DNA from: Nitratireductor kimnyeongensis
GTDB lineage: Bacteria; Pseudomonadota; Alphaproteobacteria; Rhizobiales; Rhizobiaceae
Assembly: GCF_019891395.1 (NCBI RefSeq)
Contig: NZ_CP078143.1
Coordinates: 2,741,001-2,805,000, forward strand
Direction of reading: 5' to 3'
Length of the DNA: 64,000 bases
The position numbers and the translations under genes are program-made. Positions within the stretch are counted from its first letter, which is position 1. Each line of letters starts with the position of its first letter. Positions 3,702 to 46,583 of the stretch are shown piece after piece. The notes under the pieces are model-generated. The model made no database searches. It had not been told where the DNA came from and saw only the letters and a list, made by a program, of their open reading frames with translations.

Positions 3702-4892
<1,191 letters not shown>

Positions 4893-4923
4893 AGAACAAA
4901 ATTTGTGGAATGGCGGTGTAAGA

Positions 4924-5697: not shown

Positions 5698-5740
5698 AGC
5701 TTTTTGCAACAGTTGAGCCTCCAGGTGGAAAGGTAAGGTG

Positions 5741-6439: not shown

Positions 6440-8191
6440 GGTTTCCCAAAATTGCTCCGACGTTATCTGCGGGTAGGCTGTCTTGTAGGCCTCCCGCAAT
6501 TTTTTGTAGCCGAGCAAAAAGCGCAGGCTGAGTGTCGCTACTTTGATTGCTTGTTTTATTCCTCTGAGCTGCTGAAATTGCACCGAGTAGGCTTGTGAGC
6601 CATCGGAGCTGATCACTCGTATCTTCTTTAATCCCCAAAGTATTGGAAGGTGGTTTCGGTCATGCACGCCAACTGTTCCTTCACGCAATGAGAGCCCCAG
6701 GCGCGGTAGGAAATGACCATTCAAAGTTAATTTCATCAAGCGCGCGCGCCACAAAGGGAGGACGCGTGGATACTCATAAACCGCGGTGGGTCGGCCCTCT
6801 CGTTGCTTCCAGCGCTCCTGCTGAACCAAGTCATTTATACTTTTACGCCGATTGCTATGCGTGAGATTGTTTTTGAAATAATCCGGCCCTTCAAGTACGT
6901 CTTCCCAGGAGAGCAAAAGGGAGTCCACGGTTTCATAATGAAGTTTGCAGATGTTTCTGAGTATAAACCATAGAGGAATTAATATTACATAAAACCTATT
7001 GCTTTTCAACTGAGGTGCACTCATGTGCTGAACTAGGCTATTTCTCAAGTCTAGATAAAGAGTCTGTGGAGACTCTTTCTCTTCGAAATCATCTTGAAAT
7101 GATATGACGCCATTGATCGTCTGGATTGAAAACTCATTGTTCAAGGAGAAGCTTATATCGTCTCCACGAACAAAGAAGGGGAAAGGATAGTGCCGAGTAA
7201 GCCCTATCGGAAAGGCAAAGAACCACCAGCCGCCATAGAGCGTTGCCGGATCCGTGTTTTGGGTCTCCCGCTCGATTTCAATGATGGAATTAAACAACCG
7301 TAGATCGGAACCTTTGAAGCGCGGACGGCAAATTCTGTCGAACAGTGCACCATTCTCCCACATTCGCCATTTGTGATTGTTTGCAATCATGGCGCCGGCT
7401 ATCGCGGTATTCTCTTTCGTTGCCAATTGAAGGAAGGCGTAGGTACGGTGGAGATTTTCCATGTGGAACGAGGCGTCGTCGTCCATGAATAGGCAGTGAG
7501 TGTAGCCTGCATTTTTCGCTTCCAAGAGCCCGCGCGCAAAGCCGCCTGATCCGCCGAAATTCGGGTTTTCGATATAGCGGATCTGGTTGTCGGTCTCGAT
7601 CTTCGCCGATTTTCCATTGTCCACCACAAATACGCCGATATCTCCGCTGTAGGGATGGCCCGCCAAATAATCGCGAAGGCGTCGAGAAGTTTCCTCCACT
7701 TGGGCCTCGCGCTTAAAGGTGGTGATAGAGATCGCAAGCTTTATGTCGCGCAAGGGTTGTGTATCTGTGATAAAAGCTGCGCTCTCCAGTGTCCCTTCAG
7801 AGAGCGCTGTCAGCTCGAAATAAAGAATGCCGTTGCGCCATCGTTCATCGCTCCTATCAAGTTCGACGGAGAGGGGAGCTTCCGGTTCGAGCGAGACGAC
7901 ATCGTTGTACAACACCTCCCATGAGCGATTCAGATAGGCGCAATGTACCCGAAGCTGAAAACGGCCAGTGCCTGCAAGCCGAAGAAACAGTTTCCCCAAC
8001 TTACACAGGCGTGACCACTTTCCGATGCTCAGGGCATTGAAGTAGGTGTCGAATGATAGCTTTCCTCCAGGAGAAAAGTGGAAATTCCTTTTCTCGAAAC
8101 TTGCTGCGATCATGCCGCTGGTACGAAAATAGAGCTCGGTTTCAGTGCAGATTTCGTATTCCGGAAAAACCAGGTTCTGGAGGGTAATCAT
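6413..8191 (-). CDS. GlfT2-like galactofuranosyltransferase (GT2 family with N-terminal beta domain)
   Basis: This 592-residue protein has the layout of mycobacterial GlfT2. The N-terminal 160 residues are rich in beta-strand sequence, then a GT-A domain starts at LAISITTFKR. Motifs include NPNFGGSGGFARG, the metal-binding LFMDDDA (Asp 237-239), GGWWFFAFP and the catalytic-loop FVRGDDISFSL, followed by a helical C-terminus. It should add Galf units to a lipid-linked acceptor at the inner membrane, using the product of glf. The His that normally follows in a vwHe-type metal-ligand motif appears as Gln (ISFQDDF), which may affect metal binding. It is transcribed opposite to its neighbours and diverges from the transferase at 8320. 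Confidence 0.85.
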   Translation of the reverse strand: MITLQNLVFPEYEICTETELYFRTSGMIAASFEKRNFHFSPGGKLSFDTYFNALSIGKWSRLCKLGKLFLRLAGTGRFQLRVHCAYLNRSWEVLYNDVVSLEPEAPLSVELDRSDERWRNGILYFELTALSEGTLESAAFITDTQPLRDIKLAISITTFKREAQVEETSRRLRDYLAGHPYSGDIGVFVVDNGKSAKIETDNQIRYIENPNFGGSGGFARGLLEAKNAGYTHCLFMDDDASFHMENLHRTYAFLQLATKENTAIAGAMIANNHKWRMWENGALFDRICRPRFKGSDLRLFNSIIEIERETQNTDPATLYGGWWFFAFPIGLTRHYPFPFFVRGDDISFSLNNEFSIQTINGVISFQDDFEEKESPQTLYLDLRNSLVQHMSAPQLKSNRFYVILIPLWFILRNICKLHYETVDSLLLSWEDVLEGPDYFKNNLTHSNRRKSINDLVQQERWKQREGRPTAVYEYPRVLPLWRARLMKLTLNGHFLPRLGLSLREGTVGVHDRNHLPILWGLKKIRVISSDGSQAYSVQFQQLRGIKQAIKVATLSLRFLLGYKKLREAYKTAYPQITSEQFWETSIRSDCQP

Positions 8192-30535: not shown

Positions 30536-31131
30536 AAGCTTCCGACATTCGTGCATTGATCTGCACACCATGGCGACATGGGGATTGCGTCGACCTTTCA
30601 GGCGTCGTCTGTGAAGGCCCGCTTGATATTGCGGGATGTGAGGTGACGGGAGTCAACTTCACGGGTGCTCTCTTTTCTGACGGCTTCGATGCGACTGGCG
30701 CGCGCTTTCGCGGTGTCAGCTGGTTCAGCCACGGCCATTTCGGAAAGGAAGCCAGATTCGTAGAGGCGGTGTTCACCAACGATGCCCGCTTCGATCAGGC
30801 AACCTTTTCCGGCGAGACGTCTTTCGAAGGCGCGGAGTTCCGCGGTATCGCCCGGTTCGACCGAAGCGATTTCGTGGCAGGTGCGAATTTTAGCAGTGTC
30901 GCTTGCTACGGAAACTTTTCGTTGCACGGAGTGTGGATGCGCAAACAGGCGCGGTTTCAAGGAGCCGAATGGTTGGGTGGCCTGTGGTGCGAGGCTGCGC
31001 AATTGCCCGATGATGTGGACTTCGCGGACACCCAGGTTCATGGCCGTCTATGGTTGCGCCACGCAGTCGCCGGAAACAGGCGATTGCGAAGCAGCGCCTT
31101 CCCGCTTTCTTACGGGTACACCTACAACTGA
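30532..31131 (+). CDS. Pentapeptide-repeat protein
   Basis: A 199-residue protein built largely of pentapeptide-like units (FTGALFSDGFDATGARFRG, ARFVEAVFTNDARFDQATFSG), with the alternating A-x-F pattern giving a right-handed quadrilateral beta helix over about residues 20-150. No signal peptide or membrane segment is seen. It is the last gene of the catabolic operon, coupled to the flavodoxin by ATGA. Some such proteins mimic DNA or scaffold enzymes; a role with the oxygenase electron chain is only suggested by position. It overlaps the convergent iclR gene by 10 bp. Confidence 0.8.
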   Translation: MKASDIRALICTPWRHGDCVDLSGVVCEGPLDIAGCEVTGVNFTGALFSDGFDATGARFRGVSWFSHGHFGKEARFVEAVFTNDARFDQATFSGETSFEGAEFRGIARFDRSDFVAGANFSSVACYGNFSLHGVWMRKQARFQGAEWLGGLWCEAAQLPDDVDFADTQVHGRLWLRHAVAGNRRLRSSAFPLSYGYTYN

Positions 31132-31940
31132 TCGGCGGACCAGCCGCGATAGCCCAAAGCTTCTGACATGGAGCGGGCAACGGTCTTGAGTTCCTGCTCG
31201 ATCTTTCCAGCCTGGGGCCCGTCTTCGGCGAAGATGCTGGCATGGCCGGTGACGTTGATGGCGCCGACAGCGCGTGCCTGATGGTCGTGGATGGCGACTG
31301 CTGCGGATCCGATCTCGCGTTCAAAATTGGCAACGCTCCAGGCAATCCCGCGAGCCCGATCCGCTTGAAGTTGCTTCTCCAGATCAGCGAGCGTGGTGCG
31401 TGTCTTTGTGGTGAAGGATTCCATCGATTGGCCGACATATAAGGACCGCAGTGAGGCAATCGGCAGTTCCGCCAGCAGAATGCGGCCGATTGTGGTGGCG
31501 TGAGCGGGCAGTCGGGTGCCTTCGCGCACCGTGCTTGCGAGATGCGAATTGGGTGTTTCGCGCGCCAGATACACGATCTCGCGACCTTCCAGAACGCCGA
31601 GATGCGCCGACAGGTTGAGCGAATCGACAAGTTGCTTGAGGAACGGCCGCGCCACCTGGAGGATACTGCGTTCGTTTAACGCTTCCGAGGCGAGGGCGAT
31701 GAGGCCGGTGCCTAGGCGATACCCACCATCATCGGCGATCGGCTCAATGATGCTTTCGGCCTCAAGTGTGGCCAGGAGGCGGATAAGCGTCGTCCGGTTG
31801 ATGTCGAGCGCCTTTGCCGCGTTGCTGATATTGCGGCACCGGTTGCCTGCCGCGATGTAGCGAAGCAGCGCAATCGCCCTGGTCACCGGAGGAACGACGT
31901 AAAGCGGTTCTTTTGTTTCTGCGTTAAGCTCTTCTACCAC
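31122..31940 (-). CDS. IclR family transcriptional regulator
   Basis: The 272-residue regulator has a winged HTH at residues 15-80 (VTRAIALLRYIAAGNRCRNISNAAKALDINRTTLIRLLATLEAE) and an effector domain (SAHLGVLEGREIVYLARETP, GTRLPAHATTIGRILLAELP, GSAAVAIHDHQARAVGAINVTG). It is convergent with the end of the catabolic operon. A degenerate copy of the 25-bp operator lies 26 bp upstream of its start, so it may be autoregulated. It could control the island together with, or instead of, the IclR at 13053. Confidence 0.9.
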   Translation of the reverse strand: MVEELNAETKEPLYVVPPVTRAIALLRYIAAGNRCRNISNAAKALDINRTTLIRLLATLEAESIIEPIADDGGYRLGTGLIALASEALNERSILQVARPFLKQLVDSLNLSAHLGVLEGREIVYLARETPNSHLASTVREGTRLPAHATTIGRILLAELPIASLRSLYVGQSMESFTTKTRTTLADLEKQLQADRARGIAWSVANFEREIGSAAVAIHDHQARAVGAINVTGHASIFAEDGPQAGKIEQELKTVARSMSEALGYRGWSADQL

Positions 31941-32284: not shown

Positions 32285-32295
32285 TTACGCTGAAC
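32271..32295 (-). terminator. Hairpin at the end of the secretion operon
   Basis: GTTCAGCG / CGCTGAAC form an 8-bp perfect stem with a 9-base loop that includes the TAA stop codon (minus strand) of the MurF-fusion gene. No clear U-tract follows, so it may be a transcript 3' end stabiliser or a Rho-assisted terminator. Confidence 0.5.
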
Positions 32296-35200
32296 GCATG
32301 TCCGCCATGGCGGCCGCAAGCGTATGCAGTTTTGTGCTGTTTGAACCCTTGATCAAGACAATGTCGCCATCACGGACCTCGTCGAGGAACGCCTGGCGCA
32401 TCTCTTCCAGGGTCGTCGCGTGAGATCCCTTAAGGGCTTCGGGCAGTGCGCCCCAGAAGTCCTCATAGAGCGCTCCGAGCACGTGAACGCGATCGATGCC
32501 GTTTGCCGCGATGAGGGGAGCAAGGTCTGTGTGAAAACTGCGTGCCTGTGCACCCAGCTCCGCCATCTCACCCAAAAAAGCGATCCGCCGACCTTCGCCG
32601 GTTCTCTTGCCGAGATTCGCAAAGGCGGCTCTCATGGAGGCCGGGTTGGCATTGTAGGCGTCGTCTATCAGATGGATGGTGCGTCCACTGATCGTGAGCC
32701 GGTGCTCAGCACCGCGCCCGGGCAGGGGCGAAAAACTGGCCAATTGATCTAGTGCCGCTTCAAGCGGGTAGCCCAGCGCAGCCACGGCAGCGATGATGGC
32801 AAGGCTGTTGCGCGCCATGTGCTCACCGGCGGCACCAAGAGCAAAACGCACCATTCGCCCTTCAATACAGGCATCAACAGACCCGTTTTGCGCGTCGTAA
32901 TCGATAAGCCGGTATGCGCAATCTGCGCTTGTTCCGTAGTGGACGATTTTCAGGTCGCGTGCCTGAGCGGCAGCGTGGACCACATCCCATTCCTGCATGT
33001 CTCGATTGAGGACGGCCACGCCACCGGGGCTCATGCCTTGAAAAATCGCGCTTTTTGTTACGGCGATGTCGCGCGGCGTGGTGGTCTCGGAAAGGTGCGC
33101 TGGGGCTATATTGGTGAAAATGGCGACATCAGCTTCCGCCATGCGAGCACTCTGCCCCATGCGGCCGACCGCCAGCTCGAGCACGACGTGATCCGTATCG
33201 GCAGGAATAGAGGCAAGGTTCCAGGCGACGCCGTGCGGAAGATTGGCGTTGTGCGCGGTCTGGGCGACACTTCCATAAGGCGAGAGTGCGTGGGCCAGCA
33301 TTGCGACGGTTGTCGTTTTCCCTGCGCTTCCCGTAATGGCGAGAAGCTTGCCGTTCATGCACTGTCGCGCATACCGCCCCAGAGCGAGAATGGCTGCGCC
33401 GGTATCCTTCACCGAAAGAACCGGAACATTGTCGGGGACCGGTGCCTGAGGGGCGTCGGTGATGATCGCGGCAGGTGGGGGCTTCATGCCGGCAATCACG
33501 CTCGGCGGTACTCCTCTGCCCGAATTTCCAACCCGCATGGTGACCATATGGCCTGGTTTGCGCGTGGGCGCGTGGATGCAGAGTCCCGTGGCGGTCCAGT
33601 CAGGCCTCGGGGGGACCATCCAGTTGCCGCCCGTCGCCTCGGCAACGGTGGAGGCGTTCCAGATGGGGCCTGCCGGCGTGCGCATCGGAGGCTTGCGGTC
33701 CGCGGAAGCATGTGAATGCTGCCTCACCAGCGACTGGAAGGCGGAACGCTGCTTCAGATAGTTCTTGTAGGCGATGAACCCTGACAGATAGTGCTCCACA
33801 TCGTCGATGCGCACCCGGAACGCGTGGTGGCGAATGAAGAAGCTGCCTGCAACCCGGCTCGGCGTACGAAAATACATCGCGGTCTCTGGCCAGAAAAAGC
33901 CGTTCAAAAGGTACCGGGCGCGAAACTCGAGCGCCTCGCTGAACGCGACGAGATCGATCCTGCGCAGAAGATGCGTCATCTGAGGCAAATCGCCGATGCG
34001 GCTTATCAAGGAGCGTGCAGCCATCATCAGTTCGAGAAGCGTGGGAAAGGTGGTGATGCGCTGACGCACGAAATCCAGATAACCGGCAACGTTTTGCAGC
34101 CCAAAGATGAAATAGCGTTCCTCCGGGCGATGGCGGGTCAGTTCGTTGACGCAATAGCTCAGCCAATGGTCATGATGCCGCCAGTGGTTCTCAGCGATGA
34201 AGTGATCGAATGCCTTTTCCACGGCGCCTAGCCAGCGAGGATCCTGGGTGATGTCGTAGAGCCGCATCAGGCCGAACGCCGCCTCGCCCTCGTAATAAAT
34301 GGTACGGAAGGCCTCCTTCACTTCCAGGGAGGGATAGTGCAGCACATGTTTGAACGAGCCGGTTCGCTGATCCTGCATGTGGACGATGCCGAGCGCGAGC
34401 TTTTCCATCAGAGGAAGGTGGGTCCGGTCGCCGGTGGTGGTCGTATACTTGCTGAGCGCCAGCAATGCGACCGCATTGCCGCCCAGCTTGATCTCGTCGC
34501 CGACATCCACCAGAAACGCAGCCCGCCCGCCATCCGGAAGGTCCACTTCGCGAATGAGCTCCCGCATCATACGGGAAATTGAACGGTCTATGGCGCTCTT
34601 CAGCGTCGCCTCGCGCGTCAATTCCCATGCTTCGAGCATGGAATAGGTGGTGCTGGCGTGGCGCAGCGTGTTGTATGCTTCGATGCGACGGTCGAAGCAG
34701 GGGTGGAACCCGTAAACAAAAGCGCCGTCCTCTCCCACTTGCCGGGCGAGATATCCGGAAGCTGAGCGCACCAGATGTTCGACCAGAGGTTCGTCCAGAA
34801 CGTCGACACGCCGCCGACCGGTGTCCGGTCCCACCTCGTTTAGCGGGTGCAGGCCGCCATCGAGTTCGCGGAACACGCCTTTTGTGGAGAATACGAAAAC
34901 CGCGCGCTCGTCATTGAATTCCAGCGCGGCGGCGCCAGGATACTTAATACCGGCATATCGCGCGAAATTCTTTTCGTTGAGGACGGCGTGGGCCACGCGA
35001 TTGCCGCCGTAGAGCATCGCGTTTGCGTTCAGCTCCTGTTCGAGAAAGGCCCTGTCAAAGCCGGCATCGAGCGCCAAGCCGCACCGAAAATAATTCCGCT
35101 TGGTTCGTGCCAGGCTCTCTCGCAGGTCCTTCCATGTTCTGACCTCGGCGCGATCAACCCAGTCCACCCGCAGCCAGCGCCCTTCGAGCCCGTCCTCCCG

Positions 35201-35404
35201 CATCACCCGCCGTAGCTGCGACAGACCTTTTTGCCATGCAGCTTCGAGAGTGGCACCCGTTGCGTTGACCACGCGCGCACGAGCTTCGCCGTCTGAGACT
35301 GAAAAAAACAGAATCACCTCTGGGAACGGCGCTTGAAGCGACACGATGCCTTTCCGCAACTGCGTTCTGATTTCAAGCAATCCGTCGAATTTCTCGTGTC
35401 GCAT
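32285..35404 (-). CDS. Large fusion protein: N-terminal toroid-like region joined to a MurF-like Mur ligase
   Basis: A 1039-residue protein. Residues about 1-590 are unlike Mur ligases. After a beta-containing lead, residues about 215-590 read as repeated helix pairs (NAVALLALSKYTTTTGDRTH, EGEAAFGLMRLYDITQDPRW), like an alpha/alpha toroid of glycosidase or epimerase type. Residues about 590-1039 form a whole MurF-like ligase: domain 1, ATP loop ITGSAGKTTT (about 692), the MurF hallmark DDAYNANPASM (about 914), FLGEMAELG, and VLIKGSNSTKLH. MurF family enzymes form amide bonds from a carboxylate and an amine with ATP. It lacks a signal peptide, so it is cytoplasmic. It follows the hlyD gene by 10 bp in the secretion operon. 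It may modify the Asp-rich exported protein or its anchor; that is inference. Confidence 0.8.
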   Translation of the reverse strand: MRHEKFDGLLEIRTQLRKGIVSLQAPFPEVILFFSVSDGEARARVVNATGATLEAAWQKGLSQLRRVMREDGLEGRWLRVDWVDRAEVRTWKDLRESLARTKRNYFRCGLALDAGFDRAFLEQELNANAMLYGGNRVAHAVLNEKNFARYAGIKYPGAAALEFNDERAVFVFSTKGVFRELDGGLHPLNEVGPDTGRRRVDVLDEPLVEHLVRSASGYLARQVGEDGAFVYGFHPCFDRRIEAYNTLRHASTTYSMLEAWELTREATLKSAIDRSISRMMRELIREVDLPDGGRAAFLVDVGDEIKLGGNAVALLALSKYTTTTGDRTHLPLMEKLALGIVHMQDQRTGSFKHVLHYPSLEVKEAFRTIYYEGEAAFGLMRLYDITQDPRWLGAVEKAFDHFIAENHWRHHDHWLSYCVNELTRHRPEERYFIFGLQNVAGYLDFVRQRITTFPTLLELMMAARSLISRIGDLPQMTHLLRRIDLVAFSEALEFRARYLLNGFFWPETAMYFRTPSRVAGSFFIRHHAFRVRIDDVEHYLSGFIAYKNYLKQRSAFQSLVRQHSHASADRKPPMRTPAGPIWNASTVAEATGGNWMVPPRPDWTATGLCIHAPTRKPGHMVTMRVGNSGRGVPPSVIAGMKPPPAAIITDAPQAPVPDNVPVLSVKDTGAAILALGRYARQCMNGKLLAITGSAGKTTTVAMLAHALSPYGSVAQTAHNANLPHGVAWNLASIPADTDHVVLELAVGRMGQSARMAEADVAIFTNIAPAHLSETTTPRDIAVTKSAIFQGMSPGGVAVLNRDMQEWDVVHAAAQARDLKIVHYGTSADCAYRLIDYDAQNGSVDACIEGRMVRFALGAAGEHMARNSLAIIAAVAALGYPLEAALDQLASFSPLPGRGAEHRLTISGRTIHLIDDAYNANPASMRAAFANLGKRTGEGRRIAFLGEMAELGAQARSFHTDLAPLIAANGIDRVHVLGALYEDFWGALPEALKGSHATTLEEMRQAFLDEVRDGDIVLIKGSNSTKLHTLAAAMADMRSA

Positions 35405-35414
35405 GGTGCCCGTC

Positions 35415-36608
35415 CTAACGTTCGCGCAGTGCTTCGCGCGCGCGGTTGAAAGGTTTGATGAGGTAATCCAGAACGGTTTTGCTCCCGGTGTGAATATCGA
35501 CGGTGGCGACCATGCCCGGAACAATGGGAAAGCGCTTGCCGGCCTTGTTGACGAGGGCGTCATCCTCGGTCTCGATAAAGACGCGGTAGTAGTATTTCTC
35601 CTTTTCCACCTCGTCCTGGATCGTGTCCGGTGAGATCGTTGTCACCTCTCCGTCAATGTCTCCATAAATCGCGTAGTCATAGGCACTGATCTTGACGCTC
35701 GCTCTCTGGCCCGGATGGATGAAGGCGATGTCGCGCGGCGAGATGCGTGTCTCAATGAGCAACTGGTCATCGAGCGGGATGATATCCATCAGCTTTCCGT
35801 TTGGGGGAACGACACCGCCAATGGTGGAAACCTCTATATTCTTGACGATGCCACGCACTGGCGAGCGGTGTGTCAGCCGAGCAAGACTGTCTGAACGCCC
35901 GCGGACGACCGGGGAGAGTGCGCTCATTTCGGCGTTGGCTTCGGACAATTCCTCTCGGGCACGAACAAGATACTCGGATTTGACTTCGGCTTTCTTGAGT
36001 TCCAGTTCGGCAGCCTGGCGCTGAAGACGGATGATTTCGACATTGCTCGCCGCACCGATGGCGGAGAGCGATTGGTTGATCTCCAGCTCCTTGATAACGA
36101 GAAGGAGCGATTCCTCAATCCAGCGCAACGATTCACGCAATGAGCGCCGCCGCTCCTCATAGAGTTCGCGTTCCGAACTGATCAGTTCGGGATAATCCCG
36201 CAGGTCTTCAGGAAATTGGAGCGGTGTCTGGTTGACCTCTGCCTGCAGCCTTGCGGAAGCGGCCTGAGCAGCCCGGTACTTCGCCGCGCTTTCCTCGACA
36301 TCGGACTCCTTTTTCGTAGGATCAAGCTGTGCCAGCAACTGGCCCGGCTTCACCACCTGGTCTTCGCGAACGTGAATCGCGGCGAGAATGCCTCCTTCGA
36401 AAGATTCAATCGCCTGTTCACGCTTGGTCGGAATGACGCGTCCACTGCCCGAGGATACCTCGTCCAGAATCGCGAAATAAGACCACACAAGTGCTGCCGC
36501 CAGAAGCACGCACAGAACCCGAACGATGCGTGTGGATCGTGACAGCCGTACATCGTCGTGATCGCCATATTCCCAGCCGTGGGTGTCGTCCTTGTGAAGC
36601 AGCGTCAT
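35415..36608 (-). CDS. Type I secretion periplasmic adaptor (HlyD family)
   Basis: A 397-residue membrane-fusion protein. A short cytoplasmic N-terminus precedes one TM helix (VLCVLLAAALVWSYFAILDEV); lipoyl halves (FEGGILAAIHVREDQVVKPGQLLAQLDPT and RSPVRGIVKNIEVSTIGGVV) flank a long coiled coil (about residues 90-230); the C-terminal beta region holds VKISAYDYAIYGDIDGEVTTISPDT. This is the LapC/HlyD arrangement. It overlaps the ABC transporter gene by 4 bp. It bridges the ABC exporter and a TolC-type channel to export the repeat protein. Confidence 0.93.
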   Translation of the reverse strand: MTLLHKDDTHGWEYGDHDDVRLSRSTRIVRVLCVLLAAALVWSYFAILDEVSSGSGRVIPTKREQAIESFEGGILAAIHVREDQVVKPGQLLAQLDPTKKESDVEESAAKYRAAQAASARLQAEVNQTPLQFPEDLRDYPELISSERELYEERRRSLRESLRWIEESLLLVIKELEINQSLSAIGAASNVEIIRLQRQAAELELKKAEVKSEYLVRAREELSEANAEMSALSPVVRGRSDSLARLTHRSPVRGIVKNIEVSTIGGVVPPNGKLMDIIPLDDQLLIETRISPRDIAFIHPGQRASVKISAYDYAIYGDIDGEVTTISPDTIQDEVEKEKYYYRVFIETEDDALVNKAGKRFPIVPGMVATVDIHTGSKTVLDYLIKPFNRAREALRER

Positions 36609-38809
36609 GATCGGCTCTCCTCATTCGCGGCTCGACGATTGCTCGGTCGATTGGCCGGGACCACCTTTTTGACGCCCTGCAGCACCTTCAAGGCGGCATC
36701 CTTGCTGTCGTCCAAAGCCACCTGACCGTTGTCGAACACCACGATACGCTCGACCAGGTCCAGGATGCGCATGCGGTGCGTGGCGATCACTACGGTCCGG
36801 TCCGCGGCCCAATCGTTGAAGCGCGTTATGAACTGACGCTCGGTGGACTCATCCATTGCCGCGGTGGGCTCGTCGAGAAGGATGATCGTCGGTTGTCTGA
36901 TCAACAGGCGGGCCAGCAACAGGGACTGACGCTGGCCGCCTGAGAGCCCGAGCCCACCCTCCTGGATGGGATGATCGAGACCTTGTGGCAGGCGGCGTAT
37001 GAATTCGTCCGCGCCCACCATGGCAAGGGCTTCAAAGAGCGCTTCCTGCGAAGCATGCGGCGCCCCAAGCGTGACATTGTCGCGGATCGAGCCATGAAAG
37101 AGCCGTGCATTCTGCGTGAGCAGACCGACATCACGTCTGACATCCGCCGGATCTATATGGCCCAGCGCGAGATCATCCAGCGTCACATCGCCGGAAACTG
37201 GCTCCAGCATGCCGGAAAGCGCTTGCAGAAATGTCGACTTGCCAGCGCCGTTCTTTCCCAGAACAGCGACTTTCTCTCCAGCAGCGATGTCCAGTTCCTT
37301 CACCGTCAACGCCGGTTTCATGCTGAAATCGCCATAGGTGAACACGGCCATGCGCATGCGGTATGCGCCGCGCAGAGCCGTCGCCGACACCCGTACCTCC
37401 GCATCGGGATGATCGACCGGCATCTCCATGATCGAGTTGAGGCTTTTCAAGCCGACTTTTGCCTGTTGGAGGCGGCCGAAGACCTGGGTGATTTGTGCCA
37501 TGGGCGCCATCATCCGTGAGCCCAGAATGGAACAGGCCACAAGCGCGCCGGTGGACATGTCACCCTTCATGACCATTGGCGCCCCGAAGAAAACGATGAC
37601 GGCGAAGACACCTGTCTGCACAGTATGGCCCCATCCCGTGAGCGCGCTGGTGATGGAGCGTAGGCGCAACTGGGCGTCGGCCGAGACTGCGTTGAAATGG
37701 TTCCAGCGCTGCTGGAAGCGCTCCTCCGCCTGAAGCGCTTTCACATCCTCGATGCCCTGAACGGCCTCGACCAGCATTGCGTTGCGCAGCGAGGCCTCGC
37801 GCATCGCCTCGCGCGCACTGGCGCGGAGTCTGCCTTGAGCCATGAGGCCTGGGACAATCAGAAGTAAGAGCGCGACTGCGGGGATGATCACCAGCGATCC
37901 GCCGATGAGCCAGAATATACCGAGAAACAAAAAGAAGAAGGGCAAGTCCGTGACAGCCGCCGCCGTCGTCGATGTCAGCAGTTCGCGCACCTGTTCCATA
38001 TCGCGCAACTGGGCGATGAACGTGCCCGTAGATGTGGGACGCTCCCGGTTTTTGACCCGCAATGCATGCCCGAAGAGAAGATCAGACATCCGCAGATCGA
38101 CCCGTTTGCCCACTGTGTCGAGAATGCCCGTTCGCAGGCGGCGGATGATGAAATCGAAGAGCACTGCCAGCAACACGCCGGAGAACAGCACGAAGAGGGT
38201 GTTCATCGAGTTTGCCGGCACCACCCGGTCATACACCTGCATGGAGAAGATAATGCCGGCGAGCGCGAGGAGATTGGCCATGAACGAGGCCAGCATCACA
38301 TGAGCATAGGGCCGCAAATCACGCAGAGCGATGCGGCGAAACCAATGCTTGCGATAGGGCGCGATGTAGGCATCGACGCGTTCATCGGCGATGGCCCGCT
38401 CAGGGCGGGCCAGCACCATCAGCCGTGTCTCGGCCAGCAGGTCATCGACCGGAATGGAGGTAGGTTGTCCAGCGTCACCGCTGAAGATCACAAATGCGCG
38501 CCGGTCCGCGCTGAGTGCGGCCACAACGCCGACAAGCCCACTTTCGAGCTCGACCAGAACCGGCAGTCGCCAGCTGTGGAGCTTGCGAAATCGAACGGGT
38601 TTGGCCCGCAGCCCGATTTTTCGGGAAACCCTGACGATGCCTTCTGCTTTGTCGGACGTTTCCAGGGACTGCGCCAATTGACGAGCGCCCTGCGCGGAAA
38701 ACGGCACATTGTAATGCCTTGCCACGTGCTCCAGCGCTTCGATCCAAGCCCAGAGATCTGGCCCATCTCGATCAGGTCTTTCCGCCTGCTCCATGTCGGG
38801 GCCCTTCAT
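36605..38809 (-). CDS. Type I secretion ABC transporter with inactive C39 peptidase-like domain (LapB-like)
   Basis: The 734-residue protein starts with a peptidase-C39-like domain (residues about 15-140) in which the catalytic Cys is missing: the start reads DLWAWIEALEHVARHYNVPFS with no Cys. This is the docking-type CLD of RTX and adhesin exporters. A six-TM region follows, then an ATPase with Walker A VLGKNGAGKSTFL, signature LSGGQRQSLLLARLL, Walker B IILLDEPTAAMD and H-loop ATHRM. It would energise export of the Asp-Ala protein encoded just upstream without cleaving a leader. Start 38809 has GAAGGGG upstream; ATG 38794 is an alternative. Confidence 0.93.
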   Translation of the reverse strand: MKGPDMEQAERPDRDGPDLWAWIEALEHVARHYNVPFSAQGARQLAQSLETSDKAEGIVRVSRKIGLRAKPVRFRKLHSWRLPVLVELESGLVGVVAALSADRRAFVIFSGDAGQPTSIPVDDLLAETRLMVLARPERAIADERVDAYIAPYRKHWFRRIALRDLRPYAHVMLASFMANLLALAGIIFSMQVYDRVVPANSMNTLFVLFSGVLLAVLFDFIIRRLRTGILDTVGKRVDLRMSDLLFGHALRVKNRERPTSTGTFIAQLRDMEQVRELLTSTTAAAVTDLPFFFLFLGIFWLIGGSLVIIPAVALLLLIVPGLMAQGRLRASAREAMREASLRNAMLVEAVQGIEDVKALQAEERFQQRWNHFNAVSADAQLRLRSITSALTGWGHTVQTGVFAVIVFFGAPMVMKGDMSTGALVACSILGSRMMAPMAQITQVFGRLQQAKVGLKSLNSIMEMPVDHPDAEVRVSATALRGAYRMRMAVFTYGDFSMKPALTVKELDIAAGEKVAVLGKNGAGKSTFLQALSGMLEPVSGDVTLDDLALGHIDPADVRRDVGLLTQNARLFHGSIRDNVTLGAPHASQEALFEALAMVGADEFIRRLPQGLDHPIQEGGLGLSGGQRQSLLLARLLIRQPTIILLDEPTAAMDESTERQFITRFNDWAADRTVVIATHRMRILDLVERIVVFDNGQVALDDSKDAALKVLQGVKKVVPANRPSNRRAANEESRS

Positions 38810-38844
38810 GCGATCCCCTTCGGTTGATCAATCACTGTGTTGTC

Positions 38845-38870
38845 GTTGCGCGATCCTGCGACCGCGCAAC
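38845..38870 (-). other. Perfect hairpin between the repeat-protein gene and the exporter genes
   Basis: GTTGCGCG / CGCGCAAC, 8 bp with a 10-base loop, lies in the 74-bp gap downstream of the repeat-protein stop. No U-run follows in the minus direction. It could slow transcription or block 3' exonucleases, so that much more substrate than exporter is made from one operon. Confidence 0.55.
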
Positions 38871-38883
38871 GCTGTCTTCCGGG

Positions 38884-41800
38884 CTACACGCCCGCCGAGC
38901 CGCTGTCGTCCAGGTCGTCTTCCTGCACCAGGTGGCCGAACGGATCGACAGGCTCGCTTTCGACAAGACCGGATCCTCCGTCATTGCCCATGTCATTGCC
39001 CACGTCCTTGGTCGCAGTGCTTTCCGTGTCCTGCGAAAGCATCTCGATATTGTCCAGCGGCACTTCCGGGCTGCCTCCCTCTTCGAGCAGGCCGAGCATT
39101 CTTGCGCCGTCCGCCGGTGTGGTCTGGCCGGGGCCGCTATCTTCCGCGCTCGATTGGTCGAGCCCGTCGAGCGCGACAACATCCTCCGTGACAAACAGCG
39201 GCTGGGTTGATGCGATCGCAACGAACGTGCCAGGCCCTGCGCCCTGCTCGATATCGATCGTTAGCGTGGCTTCCACACTCGTACCGTTCGGATGTTCCAG
39301 TTGATAGGTGAAGACATCCGACTGGCCGATTGAGGCCACGTCCGGATCCGGTTCGTAACTGTATGCGCCGTCGGCAAAGATCGTCAGCGTGCCGTAGGTG
39401 CCCACAAGCTGCGTGCCCGCCTGCCCAGGCTCTTCATAGGTCACGCCGTCAGGCGCCACTTTCAGCACCGTGTAGGTCGAGCCCAGCGTGTCATCCTCGA
39501 GCACATTGCCCTGTGTGGACACGCCCCCCTCCGCAACGATCTGCGTCAGATCGCTGTTTTCGAAGGTCAAGTCAGCGCTAACGGTGACTCCGATGGCGAT
39601 CCCGCTATTGGAGACGTTCAGGCGGTACTGCCCTGTCGGAAGGTCATCAATCGTCGCTTCGATTGATTCACCAACGATTCCGATCACGTCGATCAGTCCT
39701 GCCTCGCTGCTGTTGGCTATCTCCACCCAGGCGCCATCAACGAATTGTTCCAGCGAGAACTCGATGGATTCAAGAAGATTGAGCAGACTGGAAGAACTGA
39801 CTGAAATCGACAGGTCGGTCTCGACCTGATCCGCAACGTTGAAGTCATAACTTCCTTCGCCACCGCCCAATACGTTCGTGTACTGGATGGCATTGTCGAC
39901 CTGCTGCGTGGTGACGACATAGGTCGTGTCGATCCCGGCTGTTCCGGTGTCGTCCACGGCGGTCATGTCCAGCGTCGCGGGCTGTGAAGGATCGAGATCG
40001 TTCCAGACCAGGCCCTGGCCGGCACTGTCCACCTGCACGTAAAGTGTGGCTGTCGACGTATTGCCGGTTTCAGGGTCGTTCAGCGTGTAGGTGAACGCAT
40101 CCACCTGACCGATGCCATCGCCCGCAGCATTGGGGGTGTAGGTGTAGCTGCCGTCAGGATCGATGGTCAGCGTGCCGTAGGTGCCAACGATAGTGGCCCC
40201 CGGCCCGGCCACCGCTTCACCATTCACCTGCGTGATCACCGTTGTCGGCGTGACGTCGTCAACTTGCCCATCGTCATTCACGTCGGTGATGACATTGCCG
40301 GAAACCGGGACCGGATCGTAACCGCCGATCTCGGTGTAATTGAAGTCCGTACCGGACACCTGCAAGTCGCCGAGCACACCCACGCCGACGCCTTCGAAAG
40401 TCATGAAGGCCCGATACTGGCCGGATTCAAGCAATTGCTCGACCTGGTACTCATTTCCACTCAACAGCCCGAGCTCGAGCAGCGTTGCTTCACCGGTGCC
40501 GTCAATGCCTGTCCATTGTGTGCCGTCCCATTTCTGGATGACCAGCGCATAATCGCTGAGGACACCTAGGGAGGCCAGCGCGCTGTAATCGAAATCGGCT
40601 TCCAGCGTGTGGTTTTCTTCCACGCTGAAGTTGACGGTGGAGGTTCCCAGGACTTCGGCCTGCAGGTCCAGCACACCGATTGAAACAAGTGCCAGATAGT
40701 TTGCACTGCCGTGATCGACGGATGACGACGTCGGAAGGACGTTCACCTCCGCACGGGCAAAATCATCATAAGCCTGGATATCGGCGTCTGCATCGGCATC
40801 CGCGTCAGCATCTGCGTCCGCATCAGCATCAGCATCAGCATCGGCGTCGGCGTCAGCGTCTGCATCCGCGTCGGCATCCGCATCCGCATCGGCGTCTGCA
40901 TCCGCATCGGCGTCAGCATCTGCATCTGCATCTGCATCCGCATCCGCATCTGCGTCGGCATCTGCGTCAGCGTCGGCATCCGCGTCCGCATCAGCGTCTG
41001 CGTCAGCATCGGCGTCGGCATCCGCATCCGCGTCAGCATCTGCATCTGCGTCAGCATCCGCATCGGCGTCAGCATCCGCGTCCGCATCGGCATCTGCATC
41101 TGCATCTGCGTCGGCATCTGCGTCTGCATCTGCATCTGCATCGGCGTCAGCATCCGCGTCCGCATCTGCATCTGCATCGGCGTCAGCATCCGCGTCCGCA
41201 TCGGCATCTGCATCGGCATCTGCATCTGCGTCAGCATCTGCATCGGCGTCAGCATCAGCATCAGCGTCCGCATCTGCGTCGGCATCCGCATCCGCATCTG
41301 CATCAGCATCCGCGTCGGCATCAGCATCAGCATCAGCATCAGCATCGGCATCTGCGTCTGCATCCGCATCTGCGTCGGCATCTGCGTCTGCATCGGCATC
41401 TGCATCTGCGTCAGCATCTGCATCGGCGTCAGCATCAGCGTCGGCATCTGCGTCGGCATCCGCATCCGCATCTGCATCTGCATCGGCATCTGCATCAGCA
41501 TCCGCATCTGCGTCAGCGTCTGCATCGGCGTCAGCATCCGCATCGGCGTCAGCATCCGCGTCCGCGTCAGCATCCGCATCGGCGTCAGCATCTGCATCTG
41601 CATCCGCATCCGCGTCAGCATCCGCATCCGCATCCGCATCCGCATCTGCGTCGGCATCCGCGTCCGCATCGGCGTCAGCATCAGCATCAGCGTCCGCATC
41701 GGCGTCAGCATCCGCATCTGCGTCGGCATCTGCGTCTGCATCCGCGTCGGCATCGGCATCAGCATCGGCGTCAGCATCGGCATCTGCGTCAGCATCCGCA

Positions 41801-43212
41801 TCGGCGTCAGCATCTGCATCTGCATCCGCATCCGCGTCAGCATCCGCATCCGCATCTGCGTCAGCATCTGCATCTGCATCTGCATCCGCGTCAGCATCCG
41901 CATCCGCATCTGCGTCGGCATCCGCGTCCGCATCGGCGTCAGCATCAGCATCAGCGTCCGCATCGGCGTCAGCATCCGCATCTGCGTCGGCATCTGCGTC
42001 GGCATCGGCATCAGCATCGGCATCGGCATCAGCATCGGCGTCAGCATCTGCATCGGCGTCAGCATCAGCATCAGCGTCCGCATCCGCATCTGCGTCGGCA
42101 TCTGCGTCGGCATCGGCGTCAGCATCGGCATCTGCGTCAGCGTCGGCATCCGCGTCCGCATCCGCATCCGCGTCGGCATCGGCGTCAGCATCGGCATCTG
42201 CGTCAGCATCCGCGTCCGCATCCGCATCTGCGTCAGCATCCGCGTCGGCATCGGCATCGGCATCAGCGTCAGCATCGGCGTCAGCATCTGCATCCGCATC
42301 GGCGTCAGCATCAGCATCCGCATCTGCATCGGCATCCGCGTCAGCGTCGGCGTCGGCGTCGGCGTCCGCATCGGCATCGGCATCAGCATCGGCGTCAGCA
42401 TCTGCATCTGCATCGGCATCTGCGTCCGCGTCCGCATCGGCGTCAGCATCTGCGTCTGCGTCTGCGTCTGCATCTGCATCCGCGTCAGCATCCGCATCCG
42501 CATCTGCGTCGGCATCCGCGTCCGCATCGGCATCCGCATCTGCGTCCGCATCAGCATCGGCATCCGCGTCCGCATCGGCATCTGCGTCGGCATCAGCATC
42601 TGCATCAGCATCTGCATCCGCATCGGCATCCGCGTCAGCGTCGGCGTCAGCATCCGCATCCGCATCTGCGTCGGCATCCGCGTCCGCATCGGCATCCGCA
42701 TCTGCGTCCGCATCAGCATCGGCATCCGCGTCCGCATCGGCATCTGCGTCGGCATCAGCATCTGCATCGGCATCCGCGTCTGCATCAGTATCGTCTGCGT
42801 TGGATCCGCCGCCGGAAAGCGCTGCTGCCCCGCCTGCTAGAAGGCCGAGGCCGGAAAGACCCAGCAGCGAGGATCCGCCCAGGCCACCCGCGACGAGTTG
42901 ATCGACAGAGGCGATTTCGGAAAACTGAAAGTCAGCCAGTCCCGCGCTGTGTTCCCCGAACCACAGATTTCCATCCGGACCTTCGAGAACCAGGTCGCTT
43001 TCTACGCCCTCGCTTCCCACATAGAAGTTCTCTATGCGCACCTCGCGTCCGTCATGAAGATGCAAGACGAGATGGTTGCCTTCGCGGGCGTAACTTTCAA
43101 CCATGGCGGGAGAGAGTTTCAGTGTAACGACGCTCGGCGCGTCTAGAGCAATAGCGTCAAGCGATGCGATTCTTTCGCTTCCAGTACCTTTTACTGAAAT
43201 TACAGCTGCCAC
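38884..43212 (-). CDS. bapA: Giant Asp-Ala dipeptide-repeat secreted adhesin (BapA-like)
   Basis: A 1442-residue type I secreted protein. Residues 1-136 resemble the BapA/LapA prefix domain ([30 protein letters not shown], a Gly/Leu-rich hydrophobic patch). Residues 143-811 are unbroken Asp-Ala, about 334 repeats. The C-terminal 630 residues hold two tandem units, each a beta-sandwich plus VCBS-like module ([19 protein letters not shown] and [19 protein letters not shown]), then an acidic tail expected to carry the secretion signal. There are no GGxGxD calcium nonapeptides. The start is GTG 43212 with GAGGTGA upstream. As I recall, Paracoccus denitrificans BapA also has a long Asp-Ala tract and is needed for biofilm. 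It is co-oriented with its exporter, adaptor and TolC genes. Confidence 0.9.
41630..41736 (-). repeat. 107-bp exact direct repeat, first copy (second at 41894-42000)
   Basis: 41630-41736 equals 41894-42000, an offset of 264 bp (44 hexamers). It is a second independent sign of segmental expansion in the Asp-Ala tract. Confidence 0.9.
41894..42000 (-). repeat. 107-bp exact direct repeat, second copy
   Basis: Identical to 41630-41736; the next base after each copy differs (t at 41737, g at 42001). Confidence 0.9.
42482..42606 (-). repeat. 125-bp exact direct repeat, first copy (second at 42644-42768)
   Basis: Base-by-base comparison shows 42482-42606 and 42644-42768 are identical, with an offset of 162 bp (54 codons, a multiple of six), so the Asp-Ala phase is kept. 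It marks a recent segmental duplication within the tract. Confidence 0.92.
42644..42768 (-). repeat. 125-bp exact direct repeat, second copy
   Basis: Identical to 42482-42606. The bases flanking both copies differ, which sets the ends of the duplicated unit. Confidence 0.92.
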
Positions 43213-43651: not shown

Positions 43652-45118
43652 TTAAAGGCGAACGCCGTTCAGGCTCTCTCCTTCGAGAGAGAGGTACCGG
43701 CGCAGCAACCCTGTTTGGAACGCGCAATCCGCATTCAATTCCTTCAGGTCATATCGGATGTTTGCGGCTTCAAAGCGGGCGGCATGGAATTCCTGATCCG
43801 CGTTCAGGAGGTCCAGGAGCGTTCGTGTGCCCAAGTCCAGATACTGTTTGCGATAAAGGTCGCGTGTCTGCTTCATCATCGTCTCGCGCGAGGCAATAGA
43901 TGTCAGCAATTGCCGATAACTCGCGATCTGTCCGCTGGCCTCCAGAAGCTTTCCTTCGACCTCTACCCGCACACGGTCGCGCGCTTCGGATGAAGCGCGC
44001 AAGGCCAGGTTGGCCGCGCGGTTGCGAGCGGCGTTTTCACCGCCATTGTAAAGGCTTCCCTTCACATTCACGCCGATGTTGTATTCGGGATCGCCGTCAT
44101 CGAGTTCCAGGATATCGGCGCCCACGCTGGCCTCAAGCGAAAAGGTGGGGAGGCCTTCCGCTTTGCTCAGCCCGACTTGAGCTGTCGCGGCGGTCCGTTC
44201 AGCGTCTGCCTGCATGATCGCGGGAATCTGCGACCAGTTCGGATTCTTGATCGAGCACGCCCTGTTGAGCCAATTCGGCTCCGCCCCAGATACCGGTGTC
44301 CCTTCTCTGGGCGCTCCCGTAAGAGTATCGAGCCTGCTCTGCCAGCGTCGCATCTGGGCCTTGATTTCGAGTTCCTTTGCCTGTGCTGCCTGCACCCGGG
44401 CCTCGGCTTGAAGCTGGTCGGAGCGCGTGCTCGCACCCTTGGCGGTGCGGGCGCGGACAAGTTCGAGAATGGAACGCGTGTCGCGGATCTGGTCCCTGGC
44501 AATCTTGTCGAGTGCCTGATTGCGCTGGACTTCGTTGAAAGCAAGGACGGCATCGCGGATCAATTCGTCCACCCGCAGCAGCACTTGCGATCTACGGCCT
44601 TCAACACCGGCTCGCTCAACCTCCACCTTGTGATTGACCTTGCCGAAATCGTAGACCATCTGTGATGCGGAAAGGTTGACTGTGGGGTTGTAACCGCTCT
44701 CGTCCGTATCCCTCCCATAAGAGGAATTCACTCCCCAGTTCACTTGCGGCAGATAGGCTGCCCGCGCCTGTTCGACGATTTCGTTCTGCTGGTTTAGTCG
44801 CTCAAGCGTTTCCTTGACGGAGGGATGCCAGGTCAATGCCCGGCGCACCAGTTCTTCCAACCCCGAAGGATCGCTTCCGCCGCGCGGCTTGATGGAAAGT
44901 TGAGGTTCCGCCTTCGGCTTACCACGGGCAGACGCAGCTTTGGGAGGACCGCCTGGCACGTCGGCGCGGGATGCCACTCCGGCGGTCCCGGTGATGGACC
45001 CGGTGATTTCCCCGCTTGGCTCACTGGCGCGCTTCGTTGTGGATGTGTTTGCGCAACCGCAAAGCAGCACCAACAGCGCGCAGCCAAACGCGAGAGGCAA
45101 TTCTTCAAGCAGGCGCAT
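43652..45118 (-). CDS. TolC-family outer membrane channel of the type I secretion system
   Basis: The 488-residue protein begins with a signal peptide containing Cys residues (LAFGCALLVLLCGCANTS), possibly a lipoprotein signal. A low-complexity linker of about 80 residues follows, then the TolC fold: two OEP repeats with long amphipathic helices (VRRALTWHPSVKETLERLNQQNEIVEQARAAYLPQVNW and AAQAKELEIKAQMRRWQSRL). It would form the outer membrane exit duct for the repeat protein, with the HlyD and ABC partners. It is first in the minus-strand run, with a 439-bp gap to the adhesin gene. The linker before the OEP domain is longer than usual. Confidence 0.9.
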   Translation of the reverse strand: MRLLEELPLAFGCALLVLLCGCANTSTTKRASEPSGEITGSITGTAGVASRADVPGGPPKAASARGKPKAEPQLSIKPRGGSDPSGLEELVRRALTWHPSVKETLERLNQQNEIVEQARAAYLPQVNWGVNSSYGRDTDESGYNPTVNLSASQMVYDFGKVNHKVEVERAGVEGRRSQVLLRVDELIRDAVLAFNEVQRNQALDKIARDQIRDTRSILELVRARTAKGASTRSDQLQAEARVQAAQAKELEIKAQMRRWQSRLDTLTGAPREGTPVSGAEPNWLNRACSIKNPNWSQIPAIMQADAERTAATAQVGLSKAEGLPTFSLEASVGADILELDDGDPEYNIGVNVKGSLYNGGENAARNRAANLALRASSEARDRVRVEVEGKLLEASGQIASYRQLLTSIASRETMMKQTRDLYRKQYLDLGTRTLLDLLNADQEFHAARFEAANIRYDLKELNADCAFQTGLLRRYLSLEGESLNGVRL

Positions 45119-45775: not shown

Positions 45776-46501
45776 TCAAGCGCCTACCGCGGTTGCGGCG
45801 GGCTGCTTGTCCTGCTCGTAGCGTGCGGAAAGGGTTTCTCCCGTGCGTCGATAGTGTCTGCACAGGAGGGAGATTGCCTTCTCCGCGTCGCGCGCGATGG
45901 CTGCTTCCATGATTTCGTGATGCTCCTGCGTGAGATCGCGTGAGGGGCGGGCCAGCGGACCGCCTAGAACCGGGAAGCGGTAGCGCTCGGTTTCCACATA
46001 GAGCTTGTCGGAGAAATCGAGAAGCCAGTTTGAACGGCAGGCGCTGATGAGTGCATGGTGAAATCGGTGATGCCGGTCTTCCAGCGCCTTCATCTCATCC
46101 ATCGGCGGCGCATCCATCTGCTCCAGTTTTCTGGCTTTCAGGGAGAGTCCGTGAAAGGCCGAAATCACCCCGGTCTCCCAGTCGTCGTCTCCAAATTCGA
46201 TGGCGCGGCGCAGCGCCTCCGCCTCAATGTGGATCCGTGTGTCGACGGCATCCCACATTTCCGTGAGTGACAAAGGCGCGACGGTGAAACCGCGCAGCGC
46301 GACAGACATAACAAGCCGCTCGCTGTGCAGCCTGTTCAAAGCCTCGCGCAGCGGAGAGTATCCCAGCCCGTATCTCTGTTTGAGGTTATCCAGCCGTAAA
46401 GGGCTGCCGGCCGCCAGCGTGCCGCTGACAATGTCCCAGCGCAGCTTTTGATAGGCTTCTTCCGTCAGCGTGGTTTCACGCGGACTCTTCTTTCCCGACA
46501 C
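45776..46501 (-). CDS. GntR family transcriptional regulator (FadR/FCD subfamily)
   Basis: A 241-residue regulator with N-terminal wHTH (LTEEAYQKLRWDIVSGTLAAGSPL, LKQRYGLGYSPLREALNRLHSERLV) and a C-terminal FCD helical domain. Metal ligand-type residues are visible in DTRIHIEAEALR, HHRFHHALISAC and LTQEHHEIMEAAI. Such proteins repress catabolic operons and respond to carboxylic acids, here probably gentisate or a product. The start was set at GTG 46501, preceded by GGGGAGGAG; an in-frame ATG at 46552 would add 17 residues. Divergent from the gentisate dioxygenase gene. Confidence 0.9.
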   Translation of the reverse strand: MSGKKSPRETTLTEEAYQKLRWDIVSGTLAAGSPLRLDNLKQRYGLGYSPLREALNRLHSERLVMSVALRGFTVAPLSLTEMWDAVDTRIHIEAEALRRAIEFGDDDWETGVISAFHGLSLKARKLEQMDAPPMDEMKALEDRHHRFHHALISACRSNWLLDFSDKLYVETERYRFPVLGGPLARPSRDLTQEHHEIMEAAIARDAEKAISLLCRHYRRTGETLSARYEQDKQPAATAVGA

Positions 46502-46583
46502 GTCTCCTCCCCGGCATCGCTGCTTCGGTTTTTCAGGAGAACAGCATAGCACAGCACTTTGTGCAACAAACGAAAAAATCAGA

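Follow-up and report, generated by a model that had tools for sequence, protein, structure and literature searches.

What is a relative of a cell-wall ligase doing in an operon that exports an adhesin? The locus that raises this question lies in a 64,000-nucleotide stretch of Nitratireductor kimnyeongensis (NZ_CP078143.1), hereafter the window, to which all coordinates of its features refer. There, genes for a TolC-type channel, a BapA-type adhesin with a long stalk of Asp-Ala dipeptides, an LssB-type ABC transporter, an HlyD protein and a 1039-residue fusion protein follow one another in that order on the minus strand. A first-pass annotation, made from the sequence alone, had noticed that the fusion joins a MurF-like ligase to an unrelated region, and had proposed that it decorates the stalk or else makes a surface anchor. 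The association is both real and unusual, recurring in very distant bacteria in a survey of such loci, and the general kind of explanation was plausibly guessed; the key part of the fusion is its unnamed N-terminal half, here labelled NTD (a putative AMMECR1-like domain followed by a 2-epimerase-type barrel), and not the ligase. We propose, with a probability of about two in three given the sequence comparisons, that NTD and its partner domain together act on the Asp-X stalk of the adhesin encoded beside them.

The evidence that carries this proposal is the company that NTD keeps. We considered 111 NTD loci, namely 78 from a scan (drawn from the best 80 of its 91 matches, which gave 79 loci, one of them, L085, without NTD), 10 from a family sample, eight from plasmids (54 records found, nine stretches taken and eight counted, with pWBG759, L234, outside the 111), 14 from a phylum sample, and the window itself. 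A 43-bit fragment (L164) and two weak class-sample matches were left out, and at least two contigs are present twice (L008 equals L155, and L074 looks the same as L224). With a stalk defined as an open reading frame (ORF) holding at least 12 consecutive D-[A/G/S/T] dipeptides, 53 of the 111 loci contain one, 44 of them on the strand of NTD, in raw counts that ignore shared ancestry. By partner, stalks occur in 26 of the 40 loci with a fused Mur ligase, 3 of 4 with an adjacent Mur ligase, both of those with a fused and an adjacent one, both with a GT4 glycosyltransferase, 2 of 5 with CapA, 1 of 2 with CapA and an adjacent Mur ligase, 2 of 26 with CapA plus Mur, and 15 of 25 without a recognised partner, defined as one matched by our seeds (this class includes L076, which has a CapA-ATP-grasp gene close by); none was found in the three ATP-grasp loci, the single Mur plus S11 locus or the single CapA plus Mur locus with another Mur ligase adjacent.

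Within the family sample 12 of 199 genomes match NTD, 11 of them at full length, and Asp-X repeats are present in 10 of these 11: Asp-Ala in G000, G520, G454, G419, G402, G543 and G564, and Asp-Gly in G487, G438 and G441 (the contigs of G419 and G402 break at or near the repeat, and that of G454 carries the repeat beyond the stretch taken). The eleventh, G473, shows none on its 9.7 kb contig. BapA_N exceeds its cut-off in 18 of the 199 genomes, and in the 1.9-3.3 kb around the match Asp-Ala repeats accompany it in 6 of 7 genomes with NTD and in 0 of 11 without (a few further matches came without a locus); in the seventh NTD genome, G402, the repeat stands beside the NTD gene instead. Such a difference would arise by chance about 4 times in 10,000 if the genomes were independent, which they are not. 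Three of 385 class-sample genomes match NTD, at full length only the window's own, and the 54 loci taken from this sample include two weak NTD matches; none of the remaining 52 BapA_N or NF045619 loci, all outside G000 and mostly weak matches themselves, has eight or more Asp-X dipeptides. Sixteen of 398 phylum-sample genomes match NTD, and of the 12 full-length ones not counted before, four (G667, G914, G720, G621) have Asp-X repeats. From the family and phylum counts together, the linkage is strong in the window's branch and weaker further out.

The proteins that own the stalks are diverse: type I secretion system (T1SS) adhesins, cell-wall-anchored proteins and autotransporters. Gram_pos_anchor matches the stalk proteins of Staphylococcus simulans and E. 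gilvus at 36.0 and 21.7 bits, that of Alkalicoccobacillus has a cell-wall anchor by eye, and the Asp-Gly stalk proteins carry an autotransporter beta-domain in 3 of 3 genomes (156-166 bits). We reject a role for NTD as a T1SS component, given its presence beside cell-wall-anchored and autotransporter stalk proteins. Nearly all stalks have Ala as their X residue. Gly takes this place in three diverged members of the family to which the window belongs, Ser (98%) does so in the two GT4 loci, which are possibly close kin, and staphylococci and L042 mix Ala with Ser. As judged from these comparisons, NTD is associated with surface proteins bearing (Asp-X)n stalks in Pseudomonadota and Bacillota, whatever their secretion route. 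Two further observations concern particular stalks: the Asp-Gly autotransporters of L161, L162 and L163, with 35 to 89 dipeptides, adjoin a diverged NTD, and in Sulfitobacter (L201, 8887-11769) two condensation-domain proteins and a type I polyketide synthase flank the genes for an NTD-Mur fusion and an (Asp-Ala)158 protein.

By the same token of comparison, NTD and not the MurF-like half is the conserved core, with exchangeable partners. Fused to it or beside it are Mur ligases, CapA (PGA_cap) with or without Mur, YheCD-type ATP-grasp, S11 peptidase, GT2 and GT4 domains; because NTD is the constant element, and 25 of 111 loci lack a recognised partner while two have a glycosyltransferase, the Mur ligase would be one of several tools. 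A search with the fusion gave 1012 homologues, nearly all Mur fusions among the 120 matches listed and some with an added S11/beta-lactamase-like domain, and a search with a stand-alone NTD member gave 1547, mostly without Mur among the 120 listed. On a plasmid of S. simulans, stalk adhesin, NTD and Mur ligase are three separate genes, and the window NTD is 36.5-36.7% identical to two staphylococcal ones over 518-521 aligned positions. Several other genes recur around NTD. A related alpha/beta hydrolase, which may edit the modification, adjoins fusions in L012, L016, L022, L026, L010, L154, L158, L199 and many Variovorax loci, and in Microbulbifer (L036, 15628-18541; L078, 9599-11723) a RimK-type ATP-grasp gene, in L036 accompanied by an acylphosphatase, and a transglutaminase-like gene stand by an NTD-CapA-Mur gene. 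The closest solved sequence relative of the L036 CapA domain is the lasso-peptide epimerase MslH (8gq9, E 3e-16), which acts on a ribosomal peptide (PMC10406935). An MslH-like activity of CapA is no more than a lead, since L036, inspected by eye, lacks the second His with which the HxH motif binds metal. The window fusion has no CapA domain.

What NTD itself might do is suggested by its predicted fold. The first-pass annotation took the N-terminal 590 residues as apparently helical, which fails for about 200 residues forming an alpha/beta domain and holds for the rest, an (alpha/alpha) barrel. The half has no Pfam match above cut-off and its sequence just two matches in the PDB (E 0.006 and 0.26); in the structural model the barrel has the (alpha/alpha)6 fold that defines the N-acylglucosamine (AGE)/cellobiose 2-epimerase superfamily, from which NTD differs by an identity of 9-15% in the best rows, by its extra N-terminal domain and by a substrate that is apparently a protein repeat. 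Nine residues are invariant over 83 NTD sequences from at least two phyla (H249, H353, R367, R381, H413, E507, R530, D534, D535), including three His that might correspond to the catalytic His pair of the epimerases. Since the barrel keeps these His, Arg, Asp and Glu residues, NTD may itself be an enzyme; it may isomerise or epimerise the Asp of the stalk, which would fit Gly, Ser and Ala as common X residues as well as the loci without a partner. This invariance, and a P-loop that 63 of 70 Mur fusions and the window protein retain intact, make it very improbable that NTD only binds the very acidic repeat as a chaperone, holding it in solution until export, beside a catalytically idle or unrelated Mur half, a role with which the 25 partnerless loci of 111 and six fusions with a degenerate Mur half would agree.

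For one member of the family a genetic result very likely exists. In the published account, GtfC of Staphylococcus aureus is a 538-residue protein called a glycosyltransferase from a BLAST name and not predicted as one by CAZy, and GtfC with GtfD gives full glycosylation of the SD stalk of Pls, GtfD alone giving weak glycosylation or none (PMC5230774). The published primers GtfC-F and GtfC-R match NTD genes of S. haemolyticus (0 and 1 mismatch) and pWBG759 (0 and 3), the primer labelled GtfD-mutF also lies inside an NTD gene and GtfC-mutF just before it, as fits primers flanking a mutated gene, and primers within the Pls repeat translate as mixed Asp-Ser and Asp-Ala. Primer labels alone do not prove the identity of GtfC; combined with the staphylococcal NTD identity they indicate, indirectly, that the window NTD is homologous to GtfC over the full length, and the window fusion, like GtfC, has an Asp-X stalk protein alongside. 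S. aureus GtfC appears to be an NTD protein, and with its primers inside NTD genes the family very likely has one genetic result, the promotion of stalk modification. The Pls-GtfC-GtfD system resembles the window in pairing an apparent NTD protein with a stalk adhesin, there of Asp-Ser and Asp-Ala, whose full modification needs that protein; there the partner is a glycosyltransferase acting on Ser, whereas in the window a Mur-type ligase is fused to NTD and Ser is absent from the stalk.

Poly(glycerol-phosphate) alpha-glucosyltransferase is a frequent name for NTD genes (L195, 9932-11548, and plasmid genes like it), apparently given in error and perhaps carried over from the GT4 fusions. We reject NTD as a glycosyltransferase, as the databases and PMC5230774 name it: Pfam gives no glycosyltransferase match in one staphylococcal member, NCBIfam none in two staphylococcal, one enterococcal, one N. 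thuwali and one rhizobial-family member, the window model is an epimerase-type barrel, and the glycosyltransferase of K. aerogenes is a separate C-terminal domain. A different possibility is that NTD is the substrate-holding or glycan-processing partner of a glycosyltransferase, much like GtfB, and that the Mur half takes as substrate not Asp but a sugar or sugar acid carried by the stalk. The GtfC and GtfD data, the membership of the barrel in a sugar-epimerase superfamily and the GT4 and GT2 fusions would all suit it; we consider it improbable, given that Asp-Ala and Asp-Gly stalks offer no hydroxyl, that one GT2 and one GT4 seed (other families were not sought) found a single weak GT2 match among the Mur-fused loci (L228, 38.5 bits), and that Pfam and NCBIfam find no glycosyltransferase in the five window operon proteins.

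The features of the window locus are collected in Table 1. The ORF of the fusion (32285-35563, minus strand) encodes 1092 residues from its first ATG; the start at 35404 (MRHEKF...), which gives the 1039 residues and the distance of 10 bp from hlyD reported at first pass, is also where a homologue of 1037 residues (P0007) begins. BapA_N prefix, NF045619 C-terminal region and LssB-type exporter together identify the adhesin as a BapA-type T1SS adhesin, and the 335 aspartates first counted in it were found again, with 334 Ala and one Thr. The stalk uses mixed synonymous codons (Asp GAT 223 and GAC 112; Ala GCG 90, GCC 85, GCA 83 and GCT 76), which rules out a recent DNA slippage array and suggests that it is the amino-acid pattern that is maintained. 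Regulators of the IclR family (31122-31940) and GntR/FCD family (45776-46552), both on the minus strand, flank the locus; at some distance, G+C falls to 0.50 and 0.47 in window positions 4001-8000 against about 0.60-0.64 nearby, which suggests acquired DNA.

Table 1. Features of the adhesin locus and of the fusion protein in the window (scores in bits, cut-offs in brackets)
Feature	Position	Strand	Evidence or remark
1039-residue fusion: NTD (putative AMMECR1-like domain and AGE-type barrel) and MurF-like ligase	32285..35404	-	
Fusion residues 580-1034, MurF-like half	32303..33667	-	P-loop and C-terminal ligase motifs present
Fusion residues 202-558, predicted (alpha/alpha)6 barrel, N-acylglucosamine/cellobiose 2-epimerase superfamily fold	33731..34801	-	
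Fusion residues 1-200, alpha/beta domain that may resemble AMMECR1-family structures	34805..35404	-	
T1SS membrane fusion protein, HlyD family	35415..36608	-	type_I_hlyD 328.9 (208.65)
T1SS ABC transporter, LssB type	36605..38809	-	770.9 (693.1)
BapA-type adhesin: BapA_N prefix, Asp-Ala stalk, NF045619 C-terminal region	38884..43212	-	BapA_N 83.7 (27); NF045619 431.9 (180)
335 Asp-X dipeptides (334 Asp-Ala, 1 Asp-Thr), presumed substrate	40783..42792	-	adhesin residues 141-810
TolC-type outer-membrane channel	43652..45118	-	232.3 (225.15)

Turning to the ligase, all three motifs quoted at first pass (GSAGKTTT, DDAYNANPASM, KGSNSTK) are present, and Mur_ligase_M (108.6 bits) and Mur_ligase_C (63.9 bits) both exceed their Pfam cut-offs. 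MurF, the UDP-MurNAc-tripeptide:D-Ala-D-Ala ligase, is the closest family, its models and structures scoring best, and the ATP-binding P-loop and C-terminal NANP, ELG and KGS motifs of MurF are found in the window protein; TIGR01143 gives 262.9 bits, under its cut-off of 288.6. The window half differs from MurF in its fusion to NTD and in its first domain: the consensus of 41 fused Mur domains retains the P-loop and the NANP, ELG and KGS motifs but shows no conservation of DTR and FDGHDF (GERFDGHDF in the genome's own MurF), the motifs that bind the UDP substrate in MurF, and PDB alignments to MurF start only past that region. Six Mur_ligase_M matches occur genome-wide, four clustered at 392-401 kb, which we take as the canonical mur cluster, and the fusion's copy apart from them. 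We reject an ordinary MurF duplicate in a cell-wall operon, given this separate cluster, the unconserved domain-1 motifs and the way the family tracks Asp-X stalks. The natural reading of the sequence is an ATP-driven ligase with a changed acyl substrate, for which the Asp carboxylates of the stalk would be the obvious candidate; most stalks at Mur loci are nearly free of Ser and those of both GT4 loci are rich in it.

Decoration of the stalk by a Mur-type ligase, as first proposed, keeps part of its ground. The commonest partners of NTD are Mur ligases, with some ATP-grasp, as side-chain amidation predicts; all four Paraburkholderia loci carry NTD-Mur, an alpha/beta hydrolase and a homologue of D-Ala-D-Ala ligase (Ddl) one after another (in L016 the last runs off the contig), and a DD-peptidase domain occurs in some relatives. 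It loses ground in that NTD is the constant element and that the P-loop is not universal. The window protein has it intact, as do 36 of 43 Mur fusions without CapA and all 27 that include CapA; of the seven exceptions L014 is a frame-broken fragment, and the other six (L027, L031, L033, L034, L035 and L222, five in Variovorax or Xenophilus loci and one in G914) look degenerate, lack the NANP motif as well and have an ABC-HlyD exporter of another type beside them. The ligase half may have decayed in these six, and they have slightly lowered our confidence that the Mur half of the window protein amidates Asp side chains, to which, on sequence grounds, we now give somewhat less than an even chance.

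The MurF kinship also invites another explanation, in which the Mur half attaches a peptidoglycan-like peptide, for instance D-Ala-D-Ala, at a small number of Asp residues; periplasmic transpeptidases would use it to crosslink the adhesin to peptidoglycan, leaving the stalk tethered and not coated. This is in keeping with the Ddl homologue and an OmpA-family protein that adjoin NTD-Mur in Paraburkholderia, and with the S11 DD-peptidase domain of some relatives. Hundreds of Asp-X dipeptides are far longer than an anchor needs, and S. simulans has both NTD and Mur although its stalk protein is already anchored in the cell wall, so that we regard a wall anchor as quite unlikely.

Several observations weigh against an action of NTD and its partner on the stalk, or against amidation as its chemistry. 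Apart from the shared ancestry hidden in the raw counts, the first-pass annotation had taken a fusion widespread away from Asp-Ala repeat proteins as a sign against its proposal, and this is partly what is found. Just 5 of 34 CapA-containing loci have repeats of at least 12 dipeptides (L044 has 10) and the other 29 no such repeat in the stretch read, the three ATP-grasp fusions have none, and none was seen in the stretch read in 8 of the 12 further phylum-sample genomes, several but not all on short contigs. In Acinetobacter baumannii (L197, 9920-11575) NTD stands beside a large T1SS protein with no dipeptide stalk, and among 34 rechecked loci without Asp-X stalks, short repeats of period 2-12 are absent in all but L037 (partly masked) and L047. 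The partnerless loci with stalks imply that NTD may act alone or with a partner elsewhere. Three of the six fusions with a degenerate Mur half adjoin Asp-X stalks, so that not every stalk depends on a functional Mur half, and one Mur fusion (L222) has a mixed Asp-Ser and Asp-Ala stalk in partly masked sequence. Finally, no D-Ala-D-Ala ligase was found among the window genes scanned, and the published effect of GtfC is glycosylation at Ser, not amidation.

The CapA-type loci, most of them read without visible repeats, and the ATP-grasp partners could instead mean that the enzyme serves to build a separate capsule of poly-amino acid, or to alter precursors of peptidoglycan, and merely shares an operon with the adhesin. 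We think this highly improbable: the linkage to Asp-X stalks extends over three secretion routes, the UDP-binding motifs of the Mur half are not conserved, and the CapB/PgsB-CapC-CapA set is absent from the five window operon proteins by Pfam and NCBIfam (the remaining genome was not searched), the Mur half being their one match of CapA/CapB/CapC type.

In proposing how NTD and its partner act on the stalk, we envisage a locus that makes, modifies and exports a stalked adhesin. NTD in the cytoplasm would recognise the unfolded Asp-X repeat and hold or process it, and the partner domain would add a group to the stalk. A GT4 partner would use the Ser of Asp-Ser stalks as acceptor; a Mur-type partner would activate Asp side-chain carboxylates with ATP and then join an amine to them, after which the modified adhesin would leave by the T1SS. 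The amine is the least certain element: MurF kinship, the Ddl neighbour in Paraburkholderia and the DD-peptidase domain in relatives make D-Ala or D-Ala-D-Ala the leading guess, and D-Ala-D-Ala in particular is unlikely to be right. Cyanophycin synthetase (CphA) uses ATP to attach a residue to the side chains of Asp in a polymer, and its Mur-type half is detectably similar to that of the window fusion (TIGR02068 41.2 bits, cut-off 850). CphA has ATP-grasp and Mur-type domains in one chain, whereas Pfam finds no ATP-grasp match in the window protein, and the backbone here is ribosomal. We hold only tentatively, and with less assurance than amidation itself, the full picture of a 'ribosomal cyanophycin', in which a Mur-type ligase would amidate an (Asp-Ala)n protein stalk, possibly with D-Ala-D-Ala for reading by DD-peptidases or crosslinking to peptidoglycan, and the family of GtfC and NTD would be the general reader of Asp-X stalks in two phyla, with exchangeable ligase or glycosyltransferase tools.

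The first-pass annotation knew of no described system of this composition, a statement that calls for some qualification: two related components have been published, the apparent NTD protein GtfC and an Asp-Ala adhesin. The latter, BapA of Paracoccus denitrificans, is a T1SS-exported protein with 891 Asp-Ala repeats that is needed for biofilm, and it runs above its true mass on gels, a modification not being excluded by its authors; the available sections of that paper mention no NTD or Mur gene beside BapA-BapBCD (PMC5588039). In the open-licence PMC literature we found nothing useful on Mur ligases with T1SS adhesins, on CapA with a Mur ligase and a T1SS or on polyaspartate ligases, nothing linking AMMECR1 with a Mur ligase, and no Mur ligase amidating side chains of ribosomally synthesized products; for Asp-Ala repeats, the relevant paper among those listed, judged by title and abstract, was the one on BapA.

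This analysis ties stalks of Asp-Ala, Asp-Gly and Asp-Ser together through one protein family across Pseudomonadota and Bacillota. Asp-rich dipeptide stalks of biofilm adhesins are usually seen as bare spacers, the glycosylated Ser-Asp stalks of staphylococci excepted. Dedicated modification of a stalk is already known from GtfC and GtfD acting on Pls, and what would be new here is the ligase chemistry that we propose. Through this family the unusual gel migration of P. denitrificans BapA gains a testable explanation; the family also suggests that GtfC may be a stalk-handling partner rather than a glycosyltransferase, and points to Mur and ATP-grasp ligases that would act on unfolded protein.

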